From Parafilimonas terrae (GTDB lineage Bacteria > Bacteroidota > Bacteroidia > Chitinophagales > Chitinophagaceae): a stretch of 64,000 bases of DNA. Position numbers and translations under genes: made by a program. The stretch is from assembly GCF_900115755.1 (NCBI RefSeq), contig NZ_FOXQ01000005.1:248001-312000 (forward strand). Reading direction: 5' to 3'. Shown one piece after another: positions 14,852 to 52,940 of the stretch (positions within the stretch are counted from its first letter, which is position 1; each line of letters begins with the position of its first letter). The notes under the pieces are model-generated. The model saw nothing but the letters and a program-made list of their open reading frames with translations, had not been told where the DNA came from and did no database searches.

Positions 14852-14898
14852 CTGCAGGTGTGCGGAAAAATTCCGTACACCTGCAGTAATTTTTTTTG
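14852..14898 (+). terminator. Intrinsic terminator of the TlpA gene
   Basis: A 16-bp stem (14852-14867 with 14871-14886, a single G-T wobble) closes a three-A loop and is followed by TAA and a run of eight T. It lies 30 bp after the stop of the TlpA-type gene and separates it from the next operon. Confidence 0.92.
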
Positions 14899-14919
14899 AT
14901 AAGTAAATTTTACATGTTT

Positions 14920-14936
14920 ACTTTGTTTCTCAAAGT
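14920..14936. promoter_or_regulatory. Operator copy 1: ACTTTG-N5-CAAAGT upstream of the membrane-protein/regulator operon
   Basis: ACTTTG and its reverse complement CAAAGT are separated by five bases (TTTCT), followed by GCTTTT, six bases before the ATG at 14943. The left half overlaps a -7-like box (TTACTTTG). Two further copies precede creD and the small membrane protein. The product of the second gene of this operon is a winged-helix regulator, the natural candidate to bind here. Confidence 0.75.
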
Positions 14937-14942
14937 GCTTTT

Positions 14943-15590
14943 ATGAATGAATCTGAAAAGCTTTCAAGCGATCTGCATGATATAAAACAAATGATGGAGC
15001 GCAGCAGCCGTTTTATAAGTCTGAGCGGCTTAAGCGGTATTTCCGCTGGTGTGTGCGCTTTAATTGGCGCAACAGTTTCCGCAGATATAATTGAAAGGAA
15101 TAAACGGGCCGTGCATAATTTAAAGGCTTCACTGGCTGATGCCGATTCCATCCTCTATGGCGATTTTTTGCATAGCCGTTTATTCCAGGTTGCAATGCTA
15201 ACGTTTATTGCAGCATTGGTTACAGCTTTTATATTTACATATCAACGCAGTAAGAAAACAAACACGCCTATTTGGGGCACCACGGCAAAACGCCTTATTA
15301 TTAATGTAACAGTGCCCGTTATTACCGGCGGCATATTTTTGCTGGCATTAATTAATAACGGTGTATTTGGTTTTATTGCGCCCGGCTGCTTAATATTTTA
15401 CGGCCTCGGCATGCTAAATGCCAGTAAATACACGCTTCCTGAAACAAGGTATCTTGCATTCGGCGAAATTTTATTAGGCCTTATCAATTTATGTTTCATG
15501 GGATATGGTTTATATTTCTGGGCTGCAGGTTTTGGCTTACTCCATATCATATATGGTACGTTTATGTGGTGGAAATATGAACGCAACTGA
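14943..15590 (+). CDS. Polytopic membrane protein, partner of the adjacent winged-helix regulator
   Basis: The 215-residue protein has a cytoplasmic start (MNESEKLSSDLHDIKQMMERSSRFISL) and about six transmembrane segments: near residues 22-44, 78-98, 117-137, 140-157, 168-188 and 190-208. I do not recognise a named family. Similar proteins commonly sit directly before small winged-helix regulators in Bacteroidota, and a second such arrangement is at 50,640-52,178. The next gene starts 11 bp after its stop. The ACTTTG-N5-CAAAGT operator lies just before its start, so it is probably autoregulated. It may sense or modulate the regulator at the membrane, but that is inference. Confidence 0.72.
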   Translation: MNESEKLSSDLHDIKQMMERSSRFISLSGLSGISAGVCALIGATVSADIIERNKRAVHNLKASLADADSILYGDFLHSRLFQVAMLTFIAALVTAFIFTYQRSKKTNTPIWGTTAKRLIINVTVPVITGGIFLLALINNGVFGFIAPGCLIFYGLGMLNASKYTLPETRYLAFGEILLGLINLCFMGYGLYFWAAGFGLLHIIYGTFMWWKYERN

Positions 15591-15601
15591 AGAAGCAAAG
15601 C

Positions 15602-15901
15602 ATGAAGAATCCAATCGAGAACTTAAATAAAATTTTTGACAGCCGCATACGGTTAGGCATAATGAGTGCGCTTATGGTAAATGCATCTATCAATTTTAAT
15701 GACTTAAAACAGTTGATAAATGTTACAGATGGAAATCTTGCCAGCCACATAAAAGCGCTTGAAGAAAGCGGTTATATAAAAGTGCAGAAAGGGTTTATTG
15801 GCCGTAAAACCAATACGCTTTATTCAGCCACAAAATCTGGTGAAAAAGCTTTTCGTGCACATTTGGATGCGTTGGAGAAAATGATTAAGAACATAGAATA
15901 A
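15602..15901 (+). CDS. Winged-helix transcriptional regulator (HTH_27/MarR-like)
   Basis: This 99-residue single-domain winged helix starts MKNPIENLNKIFDSRIRLGIMSALMVNASINF. The recognition-helix region NVTDGNLASHIKALEESGYIKV is followed by the wing strand KGFIGRKTNTLYSATKSGEKAF and a dimerisation helix. This is the short Bacteroidota family typically placed next to CreD or small membrane proteins. It is co-transcribed with the membrane protein upstream, and creD starts 44 bp downstream behind another operator copy. It probably represses all three units that carry ACTTTG-N5-CAAAGT. The DNA-binding fold is secure; the regulon is inferred from shared sites. Confidence 0.85.
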   Translation: MKNPIENLNKIFDSRIRLGIMSALMVNASINFNDLKQLINVTDGNLASHIKALEESGYIKVQKGFIGRKTNTLYSATKSGEKAFRAHLDALEKMIKNIE

Positions 15902-15918
15902 AATTTTTTTACCTATTT

Positions 15919-15935
15919 ACTTTGAACTTCAAAGT
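15919..15935. promoter_or_regulatory. Operator copy 2: ACTTTG-N5-CAAAGT upstream of creD
   Basis: ACTTTG-AACTT-CAAAGT is followed directly by ACTTTT, giving three half-sites. It lies ten bases before the creD ATG at 15946 and overlaps the -7-like TTACTTTG. The site shares half-sites and spacing with the copies at 14920 and 17782. Confidence 0.78.
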
Positions 15936-15945
15936 ACTTTTAAAA

Positions 15946-17748
15946 ATGAATGCAAAAGTATCATCTTCATCTATTTCATTAAGGCTTTGGCTTTGCTCCG
16001 CATTTGTTTTGTCGGTTGAAATATTTATTTATTCGCTTTTTACGGGGTTTTCCGATAGCATGACAGCACTATTTTTTTCTCTTCTGGCATCAACTGTTGG
16101 CAGCGTACCCGCATTTTTAGTGTTGCTGATATTCGTGCCCCTGATAAGAAAATTTAAATTCCGCTACGCCGATAGTTTATCAATTTTTATATTCCTGTTA
16201 TTAATTATTGCTGCTGCTTACACATTGCCAGCAGCATTTATAATTGATAACCCCTTCAGCGAATACAGTTCCGTGCAGTCATTTTTACAAGCGGCCGCAA
16301 TTTGCTTTGCCTTTGTTTTCTCGTCCATCCTTATTGCTTTTTTATGTAACCTGAAATATATCAACCTCTATTTTTTATCATCAAACAAAAACACACATAC
16401 CATGCACGAAAATTCAATGCAGGCTCCTGCACAGCCAGGCGCAAATCCATACGCCAATAAAATATGGATAAAAGCAGTTACAACCGCAGGCCTTATCCTG
16501 CTAATGCTGATACCAACCGTATTTGTTTCCAACCTTGTTGAAGAAAGACAGGCGCGGCAGGAAGAAGTAAAAAACGAGGTAAGCGGCAAATGGGCGGGAC
16601 AGCAAAATATCACGTTTCCTTACCTGTACATTCCTTACAGTGTAACAACCCAATCAAATGGCAAAACGATTGTACAGGAAAAATCTTTTTTAATTCTTCC
16701 TGAAAACCTGAATGTAAATGGATCAGTTACAGCAGAGCAGCGAAAACGTTCTATTTACAGTGTGCTTTTATATAACAGCGCATTACAGGCAAAAGGTAAT
16801 TTTAAAATAGGGGTGCCGGAGGGTGTGGATGCATCAACAATTAACTGGGCCAATTCAAAAATATGTTTTGGTATTTCAGATTTTAAAGGCATTCAGCAGA
16901 AAGTTATTGTGAATGCAAACAACCAAGCCTATGATCTTTCTGCGGGGCTGCCAACAGATGAAATTGATACAACCGGCTTATCATCGCCCATACATTTATC
17001 AGCAGATAATATAGGCAAGGAAGTAAACTTTGAACTTCCGTTAAAAATAAAAGGCAGTGGCCAGTTACATTTTGCGCCGCTGGCTGGTAACAGTGAATTC
17101 AATATAACATCAAATTGGAACAGTCCTTCATTCGATGGCAATACTTTACCAGCAGAACGAACACTCGATAACAAAGGTTTTGAAGCAAGCTGGAATTTTA
17201 ATAAAGCCAATCTTCCATTCAATACAGTTGTAAAAGATTTCAATTTTAAAAAGAATGATTACACATTTGGTGTGAGCCTTTTGCAGCCTACGGATCAATA
17301 TGCAAAAACAATGCGCTGTGTTAAGTATGCATTGTTATTCATCGGCTTAACATTCTCCTTATTTTTTATTGTTGAGATTATGCAAAAGAAACCTTTTCAT
17401 CCGGTGCAATATGTATTGGTTGGCCTGGCGCTTATTGTTTTTTATACATTATTGTTATCAATAAGCGAGTTTTTGCAATTTGATTTTGCTTATCTCCAGG
17501 CATCAATTGCAACTGTTTTATTAATAACGCTATATGCAAAAGGCCATTTCAAAAGCTGGAAAGTAGCAAGTGTTTTTGCAGGCTCTATTGGTTCCATTTA
17601 CGGGTTCATATTTGTGCTGATAAGGCTTGAAGATACAGCGTTGTTGGTAGGAAGCATTGGCCTGTTCTGCATTCTTGCCTTAGCCATGTATGCAAGCCGG
17701 AAAATTAACTGGTATGGCAGCGCTGTACCGGCAAATGCAACTATATAA
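15946..17748 (+). CDS. creD: CreD-family inner-membrane protein with an extra N-terminal membrane domain
   Basis: The 600-residue protein has the CreD core from about residue 155 onward. WIKAVTTAGLILLMLIPTVFVSNLVEERQARQEEV is the first CreD helix with its ER-rich motif. A large extracytoplasmic beta-domain and a C-terminal set of helices (FIGLTFSLFFIVEIM to CILALAMYASRKI) follow. CreD is linked to beta-lactam and colicin tolerance and envelope integrity in proteobacteria. The first 150 residues add about four transmembrane helices not usual for CreD. I start at the ATG at 15946, since the earlier TTG lies inside the operator. A second in-frame ATG at 16401 follows a leader-like A-rich stretch and marks where ordinary CreD would begin. 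Confidence 0.85.
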   Translation: MNAKVSSSSISLRLWLCSAFVLSVEIFIYSLFTGFSDSMTALFFSLLASTVGSVPAFLVLLIFVPLIRKFKFRYADSLSIFIFLLLIIAAAYTLPAAFIIDNPFSEYSSVQSFLQAAAICFAFVFSSILIAFLCNLKYINLYFLSSNKNTHTMHENSMQAPAQPGANPYANKIWIKAVTTAGLILLMLIPTVFVSNLVEERQARQEEVKNEVSGKWAGQQNITFPYLYIPYSVTTQSNGKTIVQEKSFLILPENLNVNGSVTAEQRKRSIYSVLLYNSALQAKGNFKIGVPEGVDASTINWANSKICFGISDFKGIQQKVIVNANNQAYDLSAGLPTDEIDTTGLSSPIHLSADNIGKEVNFELPLKIKGSGQLHFAPLAGNSEFNITSNWNSPSFDGNTLPAERTLDNKGFEASWNFNKANLPFNTVVKDFNFKKNDYTFGVSLLQPTDQYAKTMRCVKYALLFIGLTFSLFFIVEIMQKKPFHPVQYVLVGLALIVFYTLLLSISEFLQFDFAYLQASIATVLLITLYAKGHFKSWKVASVFAGSIGSIYGFIFVLIRLEDTALLVGSIGLFCILALAMYASRKINWYGSAVPANATI

Positions 17749-17781
17749 AATTAAGATGATATAAAAAGTTTTTGTTAATAA

Positions 17782-17798
17782 ACTTTGAAATACAAAGT
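17782..17798. promoter_or_regulatory. Operator copy 3: ACTTTG-N5-CAAAGT upstream of the small membrane protein/dgkA unit
   Basis: ACTTTG-AAATA-CAAAGT is followed by ACTTTT, matching copy 2 in half-sites and spacing. A TACATTTG -7 box lies downstream at 17816-17823, so a bound protein would sit over the upstream part of the promoter. Confidence 0.75.
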
Positions 17799-17815
17799 AC
17801 TTTTTAAACTATTCT

Positions 17816-17823
17816 TACATTTG
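17816..17823 (+). promoter_or_regulatory. -7 box of the small membrane protein/dgkA operon
   Basis: TACATTTG fully matches TAnnTTTG and lies 26 bp upstream of the ATG at 17850. Confidence 0.5.
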
Positions 17824-17849: not shown

Positions 17850-18005
17850 ATGTTACCAATTAAAGTAGCGCTTCGCTCCATGCTTTCCCTGCCGGTTTTA
17901 AGAGAAGCCGATTTGCATTTTACAATTACGCTGGGCATCATCGCCTATATTGGAATTATATGGATAGTGCTGAAAACTTTTCAATACAATAAAACAAGGC
18001 ATTAA
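17850..18005 (+). CDS. Small single-pass membrane protein, 51 residues
   Basis: This short reading frame begins MLPIKVALRSMLSLPVLREA and continues into one hydrophobic helix (ITLGIIAYIGIIWIVLKTF), ending QYNKTRH. No family is recognised. Reality is supported by a consensus -7 box and operator upstream, a clean ATG and stop, and 14-bp spacing to the diacylglycerol kinase gene, which lacks its own promoter signal. Topology suggests an N-terminal amphipathic part and a short basic C-terminus. It could be a small modulator of the downstream membrane enzymes, but no function can be assigned. Confidence 0.6.
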   Translation: MLPIKVALRSMLSLPVLREADLHFTITLGIIAYIGIIWIVLKTFQYNKTRH

Positions 18006-18019
18006 GCAATAAAAGAATA

Positions 18020-18412
18020 ATGATGGATGATTCCCAAACTGTTGTTTACCGGCAGGCATTGAATAAAACCTTCGCTGCAGCCTTCAGCGGCATAGGTTAT
18101 TTTTTTAAAACAGAACGCAACGGCAAAATACAGGCCGCAGCCGCTTTATTGGCTATAGTTGCAGCTTTCTGGCTGCACATTTCTGCTGTTGAATGGATAC
18201 TAATATTGTTTTGTATTGCTGCGGTAATTGCATTGGAAATGGTAAATACCGCACTTGAACATTTATGCAATCATGTTCATGAAGACTATCATCCTTCCAT
18301 TAAAATCATAAAAGACGTTGCAGCAGGCGCCGTGCTATTTGCATCCATCACAAGTGTAATTACAGGACTAATCATTTTTATCCCGAAAATATTGCCGCTC
18401 TTAAAAAGCTAA
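18020..18412 (+). CDS. dgkA: Diacylglycerol/undecaprenol kinase
   Basis: This 130-residue three-helix membrane kinase carries the family signature ALEMVNTALEHLCNHVHEDYHPSIKIIKDVAAGAVL, with the catalytic Glu and the downstream Asp/Lys. The N-terminal amphipathic helix (ALNKTFAAAFSGIGYFFKTERN) is typical of the Gram-positive/Bacteroidota subtype that phosphorylates undecaprenol. It would recycle the lipid carrier used for peptidoglycan and surface polysaccharide. Start choice between adjacent ATGs at 18020 and 18023 is open. It follows the 51-residue membrane protein and precedes a DUF1361 gene, so the three look like one operon under the third operator copy. Confidence 0.9.
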   Translation: MMDDSQTVVYRQALNKTFAAAFSGIGYFFKTERNGKIQAAAALLAIVAAFWLHISAVEWILILFCIAAVIALEMVNTALEHLCNHVHEDYHPSIKIIKDVAAGAVLFASITSVITGLIIFIPKILPLLKS

Positions 18413-18427
18413 TTGAAAAATATTTAT

Positions 18428-19084
18428 ATGAAACTGAAAAAATTAAGCGACACAAAAAAGCTTGTTCTTATTTCATTAGGCTTTACACTATCGCTGCTTT
18501 TTGTTCGTGCATTTTACACAGGAGAACTTGCCTACTTCTTTTACCCCTGGAATTTATTCCTGGCAACAGTTCCGCTTTTCTTCAGCAGCTTATTAAAAAA
18601 GCAGGTGACAATCAACTATAAAAGCGTTTTGTATTTTATTCTATGGCTTTTGTTTTTGCCTAATGCACCATACCTCGTAACAGATATTTTCCATTTTGAA
18701 CACAGGCCACTGGTGCCAATTTGGTTTGACCTGATGCTGGTGGTTTCCGGTGCATGGAATGGTATTTTACTGTGCATGTTATCCTTGTTCAGCGTTGAAA
18801 AATTTATAAGAAAAGTATGCAATAGAAAATATGTGAATGGCATTATGCTTTCTATTCTTGTGGCATGCGGTTACGGCATTTACATCGGGCGGTTTCTGCG
18901 TTTCAATAGCTGGGATGTTGTAACAGACCCGGCGGGGCTTTTAAAAGCTTCAACACATCACATTCATCATCCTGTACAAAGCCTTAACGTTTGGGTGTTT
19001 ACCTTTTTGTTCGCCTCGTTTCTCAGCATCGTTTATTTCACCATAAAAAAACTGCCGCAGGCTTTACCACCGCGGCAGTTTTAA
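18428..19084 (+). CDS. DUF1361 membrane protein
   Basis: The protein has about 218 residues from the ATG at 18428; the TTG at 18413 is less likely. Several transmembrane helices and the conserved stretches AYFFYPWNLFLATVPL and LFLPNAPYLVTDIFH identify DUF1361, a family of unknown function. It ends with a helix VWVFTFLFASFLSIVYFTIKKL. The last codons lie inside a bidirectional terminator hairpin. It is likely the last gene of the dgkA unit, 15 bp after dgkA. Confidence 0.82.
   Translation: MKLKKLSDTKKLVLISLGFTLSLLFVRAFYTGELAYFFYPWNLFLATVPLFFSSLLKKQVTINYKSVLYFILWLLFLPNAPYLVTDIFHFEHRPLVPIWFDLMLVVSGAWNGILLCMLSLFSVEKFIRKVCNRKYVNGIMLSILVACGYGIYIGRFLRFNSWDVVTDPAGLLKASTHHIHHPVQSLNVWVFTFLFASFLSIVYFTIKKLPQALPPRQF
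19048..19082. terminator. Bidirectional intrinsic terminator between convergent genes
   Basis: Arms AAAACTGCCGC (19048-19058) and GCGGCAGTTTT (19072-19082) pair perfectly around a 13-base loop. T runs on the 3' side of each strand would terminate both the DUF1361 gene and the large minus-strand gene. The hairpin overlaps the last codons of the DUF1361 gene. Confidence 0.85.
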
Positions 19085-50639: not shown

Positions 50640-50930
50640 TTATTTTTTTACCTGCAGGTATTGCTGTAGCGATTTTACATATTCTTCAAAAGCTTTAATA
50701 CCTTTTGCCGTTATTTTACAGGTAGTATTTGGATAATTATCCTTAAACTCTTTTATCACTTCAATATAACCGGCCTCTTTTAATTTTTGGATCTGCACAC
50801 TCAAATTTCCTGCGGTAGAATTTGTTTTTTCTTTTAAAAAAGTAAACTCAGCCTGCTTTACACTTATCAGTAAACTCATTACTGCAAGCCTTAACTGTGA
50901 ATGTAATATCGGGTCTAAATCTTTAAACAT
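50640..50930 (-). CDS. Winged-helix transcriptional regulator (second copy)
   Basis: The 96-residue winged helix starts MFKDLDPILHSQLRLAVMSLLISVKQAEF. It has NSTAGNLSVQIQKLKEAGYIEVIKEF as recognition helix and the wing region NTTCKITAKGIKAFEEYV. It is a paralogue of the protein at 15602. It lies downstream of two membrane-protein genes in the same operon. No ACTTTG-N5-CAAAGT site was seen upstream of this operon, so it likely uses a different operator. Confidence 0.85.
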   Translation of the reverse strand: MFKDLDPILHSQLRLAVMSLLISVKQAEFTFLKEKTNSTAGNLSVQIQKLKEAGYIEVIKEFKDNYPNTTCKITAKGIKAFEEYVKSLQQYLQVKK

Positions 50931-50981: not shown

Positions 50982-51566
50982 TCAATTATGATATAGCTTT
51001 TTGAAACGCGCCCTTAATATTAAACCCGGCACCAGCCAAACTATGAGTGCGGTAACTGCCATTAACAAATAAATACTTGCACTTTGAACAAAGAAAGAAA
51101 CAATGGCAATTAGCATGCAAACAAGCCCGCAAATAATATGGTAACGGAATTTTGTAATCATGCCTGTAATAAATGAAGCAAAAGCAGTAAGCAATAAAAC
51201 AATCGTGATTATAATGTAACCGGCATTTATAAAATTGCCGCAAAGCGCTGCAAATACCGACAGAAAATAACCCGTCCATACATAATCGATTACTTCGTCG
51301 GTGAATGTTTTTGCTTTTTTCTTTTTTTCTTCTCTGTATTGAACCCATGCCTGTATAAAGAACACGGGCGTTAAAAGAAATAAAGGATGAAAAGGAAATG
51401 ACATTGTATTGCTTTCAACAAGCCAGGAAAGCACACAACAAATAAAAATACTTATACCATATATAATACCGCCCAGGCCACTTTCATAAAAATAACCTTT
51501 GGCTTCATGTATCATACGGTTGATAAGCTTAAAGCTTTCTTCGCCTGTTAACTGTTTTTCTTCCAT
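50982..51566 (-). CDS. Membrane protein in the second regulator operon (paralogue B)
   Basis: The 194-residue protein has a cytoplasmic start (MEEKQLTGEESFKLINRMIHEAKGYFYE) and about five to six transmembrane helices. It is clearly related to the protein from the next upstream gene (both have LIxxMIxxAKxxYxExG, then a membrane segment starting YLLWG/IIYGI). No named family. It follows that gene by nine bases and precedes the regulator. Confidence 0.75.
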   Translation of the reverse strand: MEEKQLTGEESFKLINRMIHEAKGYFYESGLGGIIYGISIFICCVLSWLVESNTMSFPFHPLFLLTPVFFIQAWVQYREEKKKKAKTFTDEVIDYVWTGYFLSVFAALCGNFINAGYIIITIVLLLTAFASFITGMITKFRYHIICGLVCMLIAIVSFFVQSASIYLLMAVTALIVWLVPGLILRARFKKLYHN

Positions 51567-51575
51567 AACAAAATT

Positions 51576-52178
51576 TTATTGTGATTTATATTTTGCCCGC
51601 AACAAATAGCCGGGAATTATCCAGGCAGCCAGCATAGCGGCAGGAACACATAAAAACTGGTAATCGTAAACTTTAATAAAGGTTGACAGGATGCATAAAA
51701 CCCAGCAGGCAATGCCGCCATATATCAATGGTTTAAACTTAATGACCACGCCGGTTAAAAATACCGGCATTCCATAAATTGCAAGCAGTATGTGAACGAT
51801 GTGCGTATAGTATTCGCCCGATGTAAGAGGCCCCACAAGAAAACACAATAAAAAAATTACAATGGCAAAAGTTATCCATACATAACTAATTATGGAATCG
51901 GCATAAGTAACCGCTTTTTGCCTCCTGCGCTTTTTCTTTACATAATAAGCCTGGTAAATAAAAACAGGAATGGTTGCAAGCCAAACAATATAGTGATATG
52001 TATAACCAAACACATGCAATAAAACAAACTGCATAATACTGCACGCAAAAACCAGCCAGCCCCAAAGCAGGTACATAAAACCATCTTCTGCATACTTATC
52101 TTTTGCACGGTTTATCATGCTTTCAATAAGCTGAAGGCTTTGCTGCGGAGAAAAATTGTTTTCAGGATTTTCAATCAT
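51576..52178 (-). CDS. Membrane protein in the second regulator operon (paralogue A)
   Basis: This 200-residue protein starts MIENPENNFSPQQSLQLIESMINRAKDKYAEDGFMYLLWGW. Six or so transmembrane helices follow, and it ends GYLLRAKYKSQ. It is the first gene of a three-gene operon with paralogue B and the winged-helix regulator. A TAACTTTC box (52183-52190, minus strand) four bases before the ATG and a TTTG 17 bp upstream form a plausible promoter. Confidence 0.75.
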   Translation of the reverse strand: MIENPENNFSPQQSLQLIESMINRAKDKYAEDGFMYLLWGWLVFACSIMQFVLLHVFGYTYHYIVWLATIPVFIYQAYYVKKKRRRQKAVTYADSIISYVWITFAIVIFLLCFLVGPLTSGEYYTHIVHILLAIYGMPVFLTGVVIKFKPLIYGGIACWVLCILSTFIKVYDYQFLCVPAAMLAAWIIPGYLLRAKYKSQ

Positions 52179-52182
52179 TTTG

Positions 52183-52211
52183 GAAAGTTAAGAAGTTGAA
52201 TGATTGACAAA
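52183..52211 (-). promoter_or_regulatory. Promoter of the second regulator operon
   Basis: On the minus strand, TTTG (52208-52211) and TAACTTTC (52183-52190) are 17 bp apart. The -7 box ends four bases before the ATG at 52178. Confidence 0.5.
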
Positions 52212-52259
52212 TTGATCGGGTTGATACGAGTTAACCTATCAACTCAATTAACCAATCAA

Positions 52260-52940
52260 CTATTGATATGTTGCCCAAACTTTTTCGCTTTGCTCCAGGC
52301 TCCAGCGCGGGTGCAATGGTTTTACCTGTTCTGCTTTGGCCAGTTCAACGGCTTTTTGCACCAATGGTTTTGCAGCATCTTTTCCGCCGCCAAATTGTTC
52401 CGGCGTACCATACACGCTCATAGCCTGCAAATAAGCAGCGCGGGGATTATTAGGATTTAACTGTATTGCTTTTTGCAAATCATCTGCAGCCTGTGCTCCA
52501 TACGACATGTAACGGCTTTGCGGGTCAACAATCATTTGCTGTGTTGCAGCCATGTTGCGCACTGTTAATATTTCTGATTTTGCTTCGTTATCTTTTGCAA
52601 CAGCATCAGCTTTATCTGCAATGGCATTAATACGTGCAGCAAGCGCATCAACTGTGCTGCCAAGGTCAGAAACCTTTACTGCAGTTACGCCTTTTTCATC
52701 GGGAAAATACATCCAGCCAATGCGCGACAAAGCAATACCCTGCCAGTAATATGGAAGCCACTGTGTTTTTTCTGCATCACCAATTCGTTGAAATGCCGCA
52801 GCTATGTTTTCATAATCGGCAACAGTTTTTGCAGAATCAAATTTTTGAAGCTGTTGCTGCATTGCAGCAGTGTATTTATCGCTCTGTGCCTGCGCTGCAA
52901 CAGTACATACAATGGCGGCAGCTAATAGTAATTGTTTCAT
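52260..52940 (-). CDS. Secreted TPR-like protein
   Basis: The 226-residue protein has a signal peptide (MKQLLLAAAIVCTVAAQAQ). All-alpha content resembles TPR repeats (AAFQRIGDAEKTQWLPYYWQGIALSRIGW and ADDLQKAIQLNPNNPRAAYLQAMSVYG). No enzyme motif. It would be a periplasmic protein of unknown role. It follows the 2TM gene by six bases, so it belongs to the same transcript. Confidence 0.78.
   Translation of the reverse strand: MKQLLLAAAIVCTVAAQAQSDKYTAAMQQQLQKFDSAKTVADYENIAAAFQRIGDAEKTQWLPYYWQGIALSRIGWMYFPDEKGVTAVKVSDLGSTVDALAARINAIADKADAVAKDNEAKSEILTVRNMAATQQMIVDPQSRYMSYGAQAADDLQKAIQLNPNNPRAAYLQAMSVYGTPEQFGGGKDAAKPLVQKAVELAKAEQVKPLHPRWSLEQSEKVWATYQ

Follow-up and report, generated by a model that had tools for sequence, protein, structure and literature searches.

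A putative operator and a co-conserved HTH_34 regulator link creD, dgkA and other membrane-protein genes in Bacteroidota

The DNA analysed, referred to here as the window, is a stretch of 64,000 nucleotides of the Parafilimonas terrae genome (C18:248001-312000), and positions are counted from its first letter unless a contig is named. The genes considered lie on the + strand and begin with a membrane-protein gene (14943-15590) whose product, the candidate partner and controller of the regulator encoded behind it, belongs to no Pfam family. SdpI was not matched in the Pfam search of this protein, which returned only sub-threshold chance matches. The structural model (pLDDT 80, with low confidence round the first helix) contained an N-terminal helix at residues 3-22, predicted to be cytoplasmic, and six long helices, and a fold search with this protein gave nothing significant and no solved relative. 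The N-terminal segment MMERSSRFISLSG is strongly conserved and the protein is without a large outer domain.

The gene which follows (15602-15901, + strand) encodes a winged-helix regulator, the proposed binder of all the sites described below. It matched the full HTH_34 profile (PF13601, E 2.2e-28) over residues 16-95 with 98.6 bits, the cut-off being 27, and reached 23.6 bits with ArsR (PF01022, the family of SdpR; cut-off 22). The assignments to PadR (PF03551, 13.8 bits, cut-off 27), MarR (PF01047, 19.9 bits, cut-off 24.6) and HxlR were rejected, each Pfam score being under its cut-off. The model of the protein is confident (pLDDT 91) and its nearest solved homologue, by sequence (E 7e-9, 31% identical) and by fold (rank 1 in Foldseek), is the HTH_34 family protein PH1061 of Pyrococcus horikoshii (1ub9), whose operator, regulon and membrane partner, if any, are not known to us. 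A second HTH_34 protein, 37% identical, is encoded in the window at 50640-50930, also after small membrane-protein genes.

Behind the regulator lies creD (15946-17748, + strand), encoding the inner membrane protein CreD, which was identified with both PF06123 (E 1.1e-140, 469.7 bits, cut-off 23) and the equivalog model NF008712 (E 1.7e-139, 465.4 bits, cut-off 275). An ORF for a small protein of 51 aa (17850-18005, + strand) has one hydrophobic stretch and its product is a probable single-helix membrane protein, with homologues of 41-56% identity in three related loci (L047, L048 and L050). It is followed on the same strand by dgkA (18020-18412), of the prokaryotic diacylglycerol kinase family (PF01219, E 4.9e-33, 113.5 bits, cut-off 22.3), and by the gene for a DUF1361 membrane protein (18428-19084; PF07099, E 1.1e-41). 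The closest solved chains of the dgkA product are E. coli-type diacylglycerol kinases (7dvm/2kdc), and undecaprenol kinase, the name given to it in the first-pass annotation, is one possibility for this sequence.

A 17-bp palindrome followed by RCTTTT had been reported at 14920, 15919 and 17782, and we found all three copies there, each on the + strand and without mismatch to the motif. Putative operator 1 (14920..14942; ACTTTGTTTCTCAAAGTGCTTTT) reads ACTTTG-N5-CAAAGT-GCTTTT and abuts the ATG at 14943, putative operator 2 (15919..15941; ACTTTGAACTTCAAAGTACTTTT) lies ahead of creD, and putative operator 3 (17782..17804; ACTTTGAAATACAAAGTACTTTT) lies ahead of the small-protein/dgkA/DUF1361 unit. 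Within the window alone the palindrome with up to two mismatches is unremarkable (6 matches, 5.5 expected). A scan of the whole genome of 4,985,410 bases returned four exact copies of the 17-bp palindrome, three of them inside 2.9 kb, and no copy of the reversed pattern across the 4.99 Mb. The extended motif ACTTTGN5CAAAGYRCTTTT matched perfectly at five places and with two mismatches at three more, one of these three being a perfect site read from the opposite strand; no match had a single mismatch. One palindrome with a single mismatch (L015) is the fifth true site, in which the extended motif is perfect; the other one-mismatch palindromes in the genome are without RCTTTT, most lie within ORFs, and they were rejected as sites.

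The fourth perfect site (C32:680444-680465; L199) is found 38 bases ahead of the ATG of a gene for a 64-aa membrane protein, behind which stand two further small membrane-protein genes, and the fifth (C36:370450; L200) is found 46 bases ahead of the ATG for a membrane protein of 188 aa. At both of these distant sites CTTTT is towards the gene, as at the sites in the window. Occurrence at random positions genome-wide had been named as the finding that would speak against a regulon, and the scan placed 5/5 perfect sites just in front of a gene or transcription unit. The motif does head the three units for which this had been claimed, but the candidate regulon has five units in this genome.

The next comparison covered 80 named loci in GTDB species genomes (going by title, for the most part Chitinophagaceae or their relatives), all encoding the regulator at 75-96% identity. 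The membrane gene was upstream of the regulator in 80/80. Just ahead of the membrane gene, 78 of the 79 loci covering that place had a site with no more than one mismatch. Behind the regulator a site with two mismatches or fewer followed immediately in 74 of the 80 loci, and CTTT faces the gene at all of these conserved sites. The recognition region (TDGNLA.H) and the wing (KGFIGRKTNT) of the regulator were nearly invariant, in keeping with the invariant operator. The third site, by comparison, could not be retained as a constant part of the dgkA unit. In L047, where the regulator is 94% identical and the gene order is shared, creD is present and the dgkA site is absent. In L048 and L050 creD is absent and one site stands directly behind the regulator, ahead of small protein-dgkA-DUF1361, with surroundings (TTTGTTAATAAACTTTGAAA..CAAAGTRCTTTTTAAAC) closely like those of the dgkA site of the window at 17782. 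From these two patterns together it would follow that creD, bringing a site of its own, probably landed between the regulator and a dgkA promoter already present there, which gave the three-site layout.

A promoter had also been proposed at each of the three sites. This was upheld for operator 1, where TTTG (14895..14898, + strand), the putative -33 element ahead of the regulator operon, is followed after 19 nt by the putative -7 element TTACTTTG (14918..14925, + strand), which overlaps the left half-site and resembles TAnnTTTG inexactly, differing from the usual TA by one base. It was not upheld for operators 2 and 3, where no -33 box was evident and a T-rich tract is found upstream; the tract ahead of operator 2 (15904..15910, + strand) is kept in creD-type sites. 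Promoters of Bacteroidota carry TAnnTTTG at positions -12 to -5 (PMC9723704) and TTTG near -33 (PMC7366714), and SM5-type -7 boxes TAnnTTGY occur in a flavobacterium (PMC9723704). Since the left half-site would double as the -7 box, the predicted start falls within the palindrome at about 14930.

The same anatomy was found in the 78 homologous operon promoters. TTG ended 22-23 bases ahead of the site in 67/78, TT occupied positions -2 and -1 before the site in about 95%, and in 73/78 the site began 23-26 bases ahead of the ATG, so that operator and start codon abut. Sites behind the regulator were without a -33 box and carried a T tract spanning -16 to -9 (with T at -14..-11 in 72/72), while the distant sites showed the same promoter trend as the operon promoters. 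A palindrome over a promoter could, in itself, also mean activation.

The gene content behind the regulator was counted in 59 named loci, those whose sequence extended 5.5 kb on that side. creD was present in 37, dgkA in 42 and DUF1361 in 39; all three were present on the same strand in 23 of the 59 loci, and dgkA without creD in 16. The link between CreD and DgkA which had been proposed from the window thus agrees with independent synteny. The cluster recurs elsewhere in the class, in other families, with DUF4153 and more membrane proteins, and one locus (L282) has the order site-DUF1361-dgkA-membrane-regulator. Among the distant sites in family genomes, 28/36 precede gene families found repeatedly after the motif in other genera, and an ATG follows 23-59 bases on in 26/36. 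Counted by genera, their targets were an MpaB/Lcp-type oxygenase (6), the 188-aa membrane protein of the fifth site of this genome (5), a MauE/DoxX-like protein (4), three families seen in 3 genera each (a beta-lactamase-family protein, a small membrane protein and an unnamed 250-aa protein) and a radical SAM protein with a B12 domain (2). Several of these families are found within the local cluster in other genomes, and families joined to the regulator by position in one genome and by the operator in another give the pattern of a true regulon. The comparison of sequences supports the placing of CreD, DgkA and DUF1361 together in one predicted regulon.

Motif and regulator were scored in a union of 579 Bacteroidota genomes, the truncated regulator of genome G060 being scored as absent; 159 genomes had both, 2 the motif only, 56 the regulator only and 362 neither. 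The corresponding counts were 52, 1, 5 and 22 for the 80 genomes of the family set, 81, 0, 13 and 201 for the 295 of the class set, and 57, 0, 42 and 149 for the 248 of the phylum set. Genomes bearing the motif also had the regulator in 52/53 (family), 81/81 (class), 57/57 (phylum) and 159/161 (union) cases; Fisher values for the association, down to 9e-91, ignore phylogeny and are descriptive only. The reversed pattern was absent from the family and phylum sets and matched once in the class set. Both motif-only exceptions are of limited assembly, the regulator of G060 being cut at a contig end and G044 being 83% complete, and the majority of the regulator-only genomes inspected have the motif with one mismatch. 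Family genomes with a distant HTH_34 paralogue alone, or with none, had no motif, two fragmented or incomplete assemblies excepted, and no site was found in the family genome G023, where a regulator homologue is 49% identical and the membrane gene is absent. Duplicate membrane-regulator pairs (G065, G072 and G040) each had their own site. Part of the co-occurrence at the local sites reflects shared ancestry, since these are linked to the regulator gene. The first-pass annotation had named the 15602 protein as the obvious binder, and both the near-perfect co-occurrence in 579 genomes and the duplicated operons which bring their own site argue for it. The motif is most likely the docking site of this HTH_34 protein, the two having been kept together across Bacteroidota.

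On balance we consider it probable that the 15602 protein acts through the putative operator as a repressor of its own operon and of the other units, and that the co-encoded membrane protein controls the regulator. The HTH_34 protein would bind CTTTG-N5-CAAAG and the adjoining CTTT half-site, and the bound regulator would cover the -7 box and the start site. Its own operon, creD, the small-protein/dgkA/DUF1361 unit and the two distant units would in this way be kept low. The membrane protein would sense the state of the membrane and would release or sequester the regulator, and release would lead to joint induction of envelope and lipid proteins. Comparison supports three parts of this proposal, namely a single regulon, the 15602 protein as its likely binder and the membrane protein as its constant partner. 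Repression rather than activation is what we infer from the position of the site, since a protein on it would cover the start; steric repression is less obvious at the creD-type sites, from which the -33 box is missing. Control of the regulator by the membrane protein is suggested by analogy with SdpI/SdpR. As for the signal acting on the regulon, the list of targets (CreD, a lipid kinase, membrane proteins and possible lipid/quinone enzymes) points to the membrane.

It is unlikely that the 15602 protein binds the sites yet activates transcription. Conservation of the operator alone would fit either sign and creD-type sites, being without a -33 box, could need help; however, the operator spans the -7 box and the predicted start, where activators seldom work, and most small winged-helix autoregulators of this kind repress. 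We think it very unlikely that another protein, encoded elsewhere, binds the motif and that the 15602 gene is just one of its targets. The regulator gene does sit in a site-headed unit as a plain target would, but this reading has to contend with the family genomes in which the distant paralogue alone, or no HTH_34 protein, went with absence of the motif, as well as with the second copies of the regulator operon and their own sites. Besides the membrane protein, moreover, only the regulator is always with the local sites, while creD, dgkA and other genes vary.

Lower weight again is given to the motif as a mere strong core promoter, a -33/-7 variant for a sigma factor in which the palindrome is incidental. 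ACTTTG overlaps a -7-like box, TTTG is found at about -33, and the SM5-type boxes of the flavobacterium cited above are in its favour. Yet the -7 box is no more invariant than CAAAG and CTTT on its downstream side, creD-type sites retain the operator without the -33 box, the motif is present in few copies per genome and limited to genomes with the HTH_34 regulator, and no sigma gene is located beside the motif within the window. A repeat element or functionless chance cluster can be dismissed: three copies in 3 kb might reflect local duplication, and the 17782 copy is like the regulator-proximal site of relatives, but conservation across families and beyond the class, with fixed orientation and gene spacing, the genome-wide counts and the near-zero reversed controls rule it out.

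The preferred reading, repression by the 15602 protein under the control of its membrane partner, was set beside known systems. The cre tag is TTCAC-N6-TTCAC; with at most one mismatch it was found 4 times in the window (3.1 expected by chance) and not near 15900, and control of creD as in E. coli was rejected. CreD itself (PF06123, NF008712) is common to this locus and to the CreBC-CreD systems of E. coli and Stenotrophomonas, where creD is near the two-component pair CreBC, whereas here it is behind the HTH_34 regulator and its operator. In Stenotrophomonas the loss of CreD disturbs envelope integrity (PMC4689548). In Bacillus subtilis SdpI sequesters the autorepressor SdpR at the membrane (PMC1626106). 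There too a polytopic membrane protein and a regulator (the autorepressor SdpR) form a two-gene operon, and here the operator is on the operon's own promoter. The gene order and targets of SdpI/SdpR are unlike those of the present locus, the membrane protein here fits no SdpI model, and the likeness to sequestration is confined to operon layout and co-conservation. With the small winged-helix repressors of the PadR, MarR and HxlR type the 15602 protein shares fold and size, but the present operator differs in having three half-sites in an invariant arrangement.

No published description of such an operator or regulon (CreD, DUF1361, DUF4153, HTH_34, Bacteroidota) was found in the open-access literature. 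The kind of regulon, with a small winged-helix autoregulator, is known, while the composite operator is unusual and the membrane partner invariable. More tentatively, and with less than even confidence, we can envisage a phylum-wide one-step circuit in which a six-helix protein without a sensor domain would read the state of the bilayer and directly control a tiny winged-helix repressor. Its three-half-site operator would double as the -7 box, and it may join CreD, the lipid kinase, DUF1361 and DUF4153 with radical-SAM enzymes and MpaB-type oxygenases as a single inducible regulon that maintains the membrane.

To our knowledge mutant effects have been described for CreD and its biochemical role has not, and we know of no biochemical role for DUF1361, DUF4153 or the small membrane proteins. 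One operator and one neighbourhood throughout the phylum would place all of these proteins in the same response, and an exact sign of 22 bases may be used for finding more members in any Bacteroidota genome. The second HTH_34 protein of the window, encoded after small membrane-protein genes, suggests a general use of such pairs in Bacteroidota, with the HTH_34 regulator and its co-encoded membrane protein acting as a sensor pair. The role of CreD would then become testable, through which inducer acts on the regulon and which of its members relieves the inducing state.

The fourth perfect copy of the motif ACTTTG-N5-CAAAGT-RCTTTT in the genome heads an operon (locus L199; G000, contig C32:675400-680965) with genes for two membrane proteins, of 64 and 120 aa, and for a DoxX/MauE-like protein whose tail is rich in cysteine. 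The motif also precedes relatives of these genes in several further genera. A recurrent target was a B12-binding radical SAM protein (467 aa at locus L184; also at L194, L046 and L113), which was strongly conserved, with 71–83% identity between genera. The 51-aa protein with one hydrophobic stretch encoded before dgkA (17850-18005) is probably the product of a real gene, since it is kept in close relatives at 41–56% identity.

A second HTH_34 regulator (50640-50930, minus strand), 37% identical to the winged-helix regulator at 15602, was located behind two genes for small multi-helix membrane proteins (50982-51566 and 51576-52178, both minus strand) whose N-terminal layout is similar. No ACTTTG motif was observed near this regulator in the window; the DNA upstream of the unit (52201-52272) contained several inverted repeats, including GTTGAT/ATCAAC and TGATTGACAAATTGA/TCAATTAACCAATCA.

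The site at 14920-14942, like the others, consists of two overlapping dyads, CTTTG-N5-CAAAG and AAAG-YR-CTTT, which share the middle half-site and have centres approximately 8.5 bases apart, and each site may offer room for two dimers.
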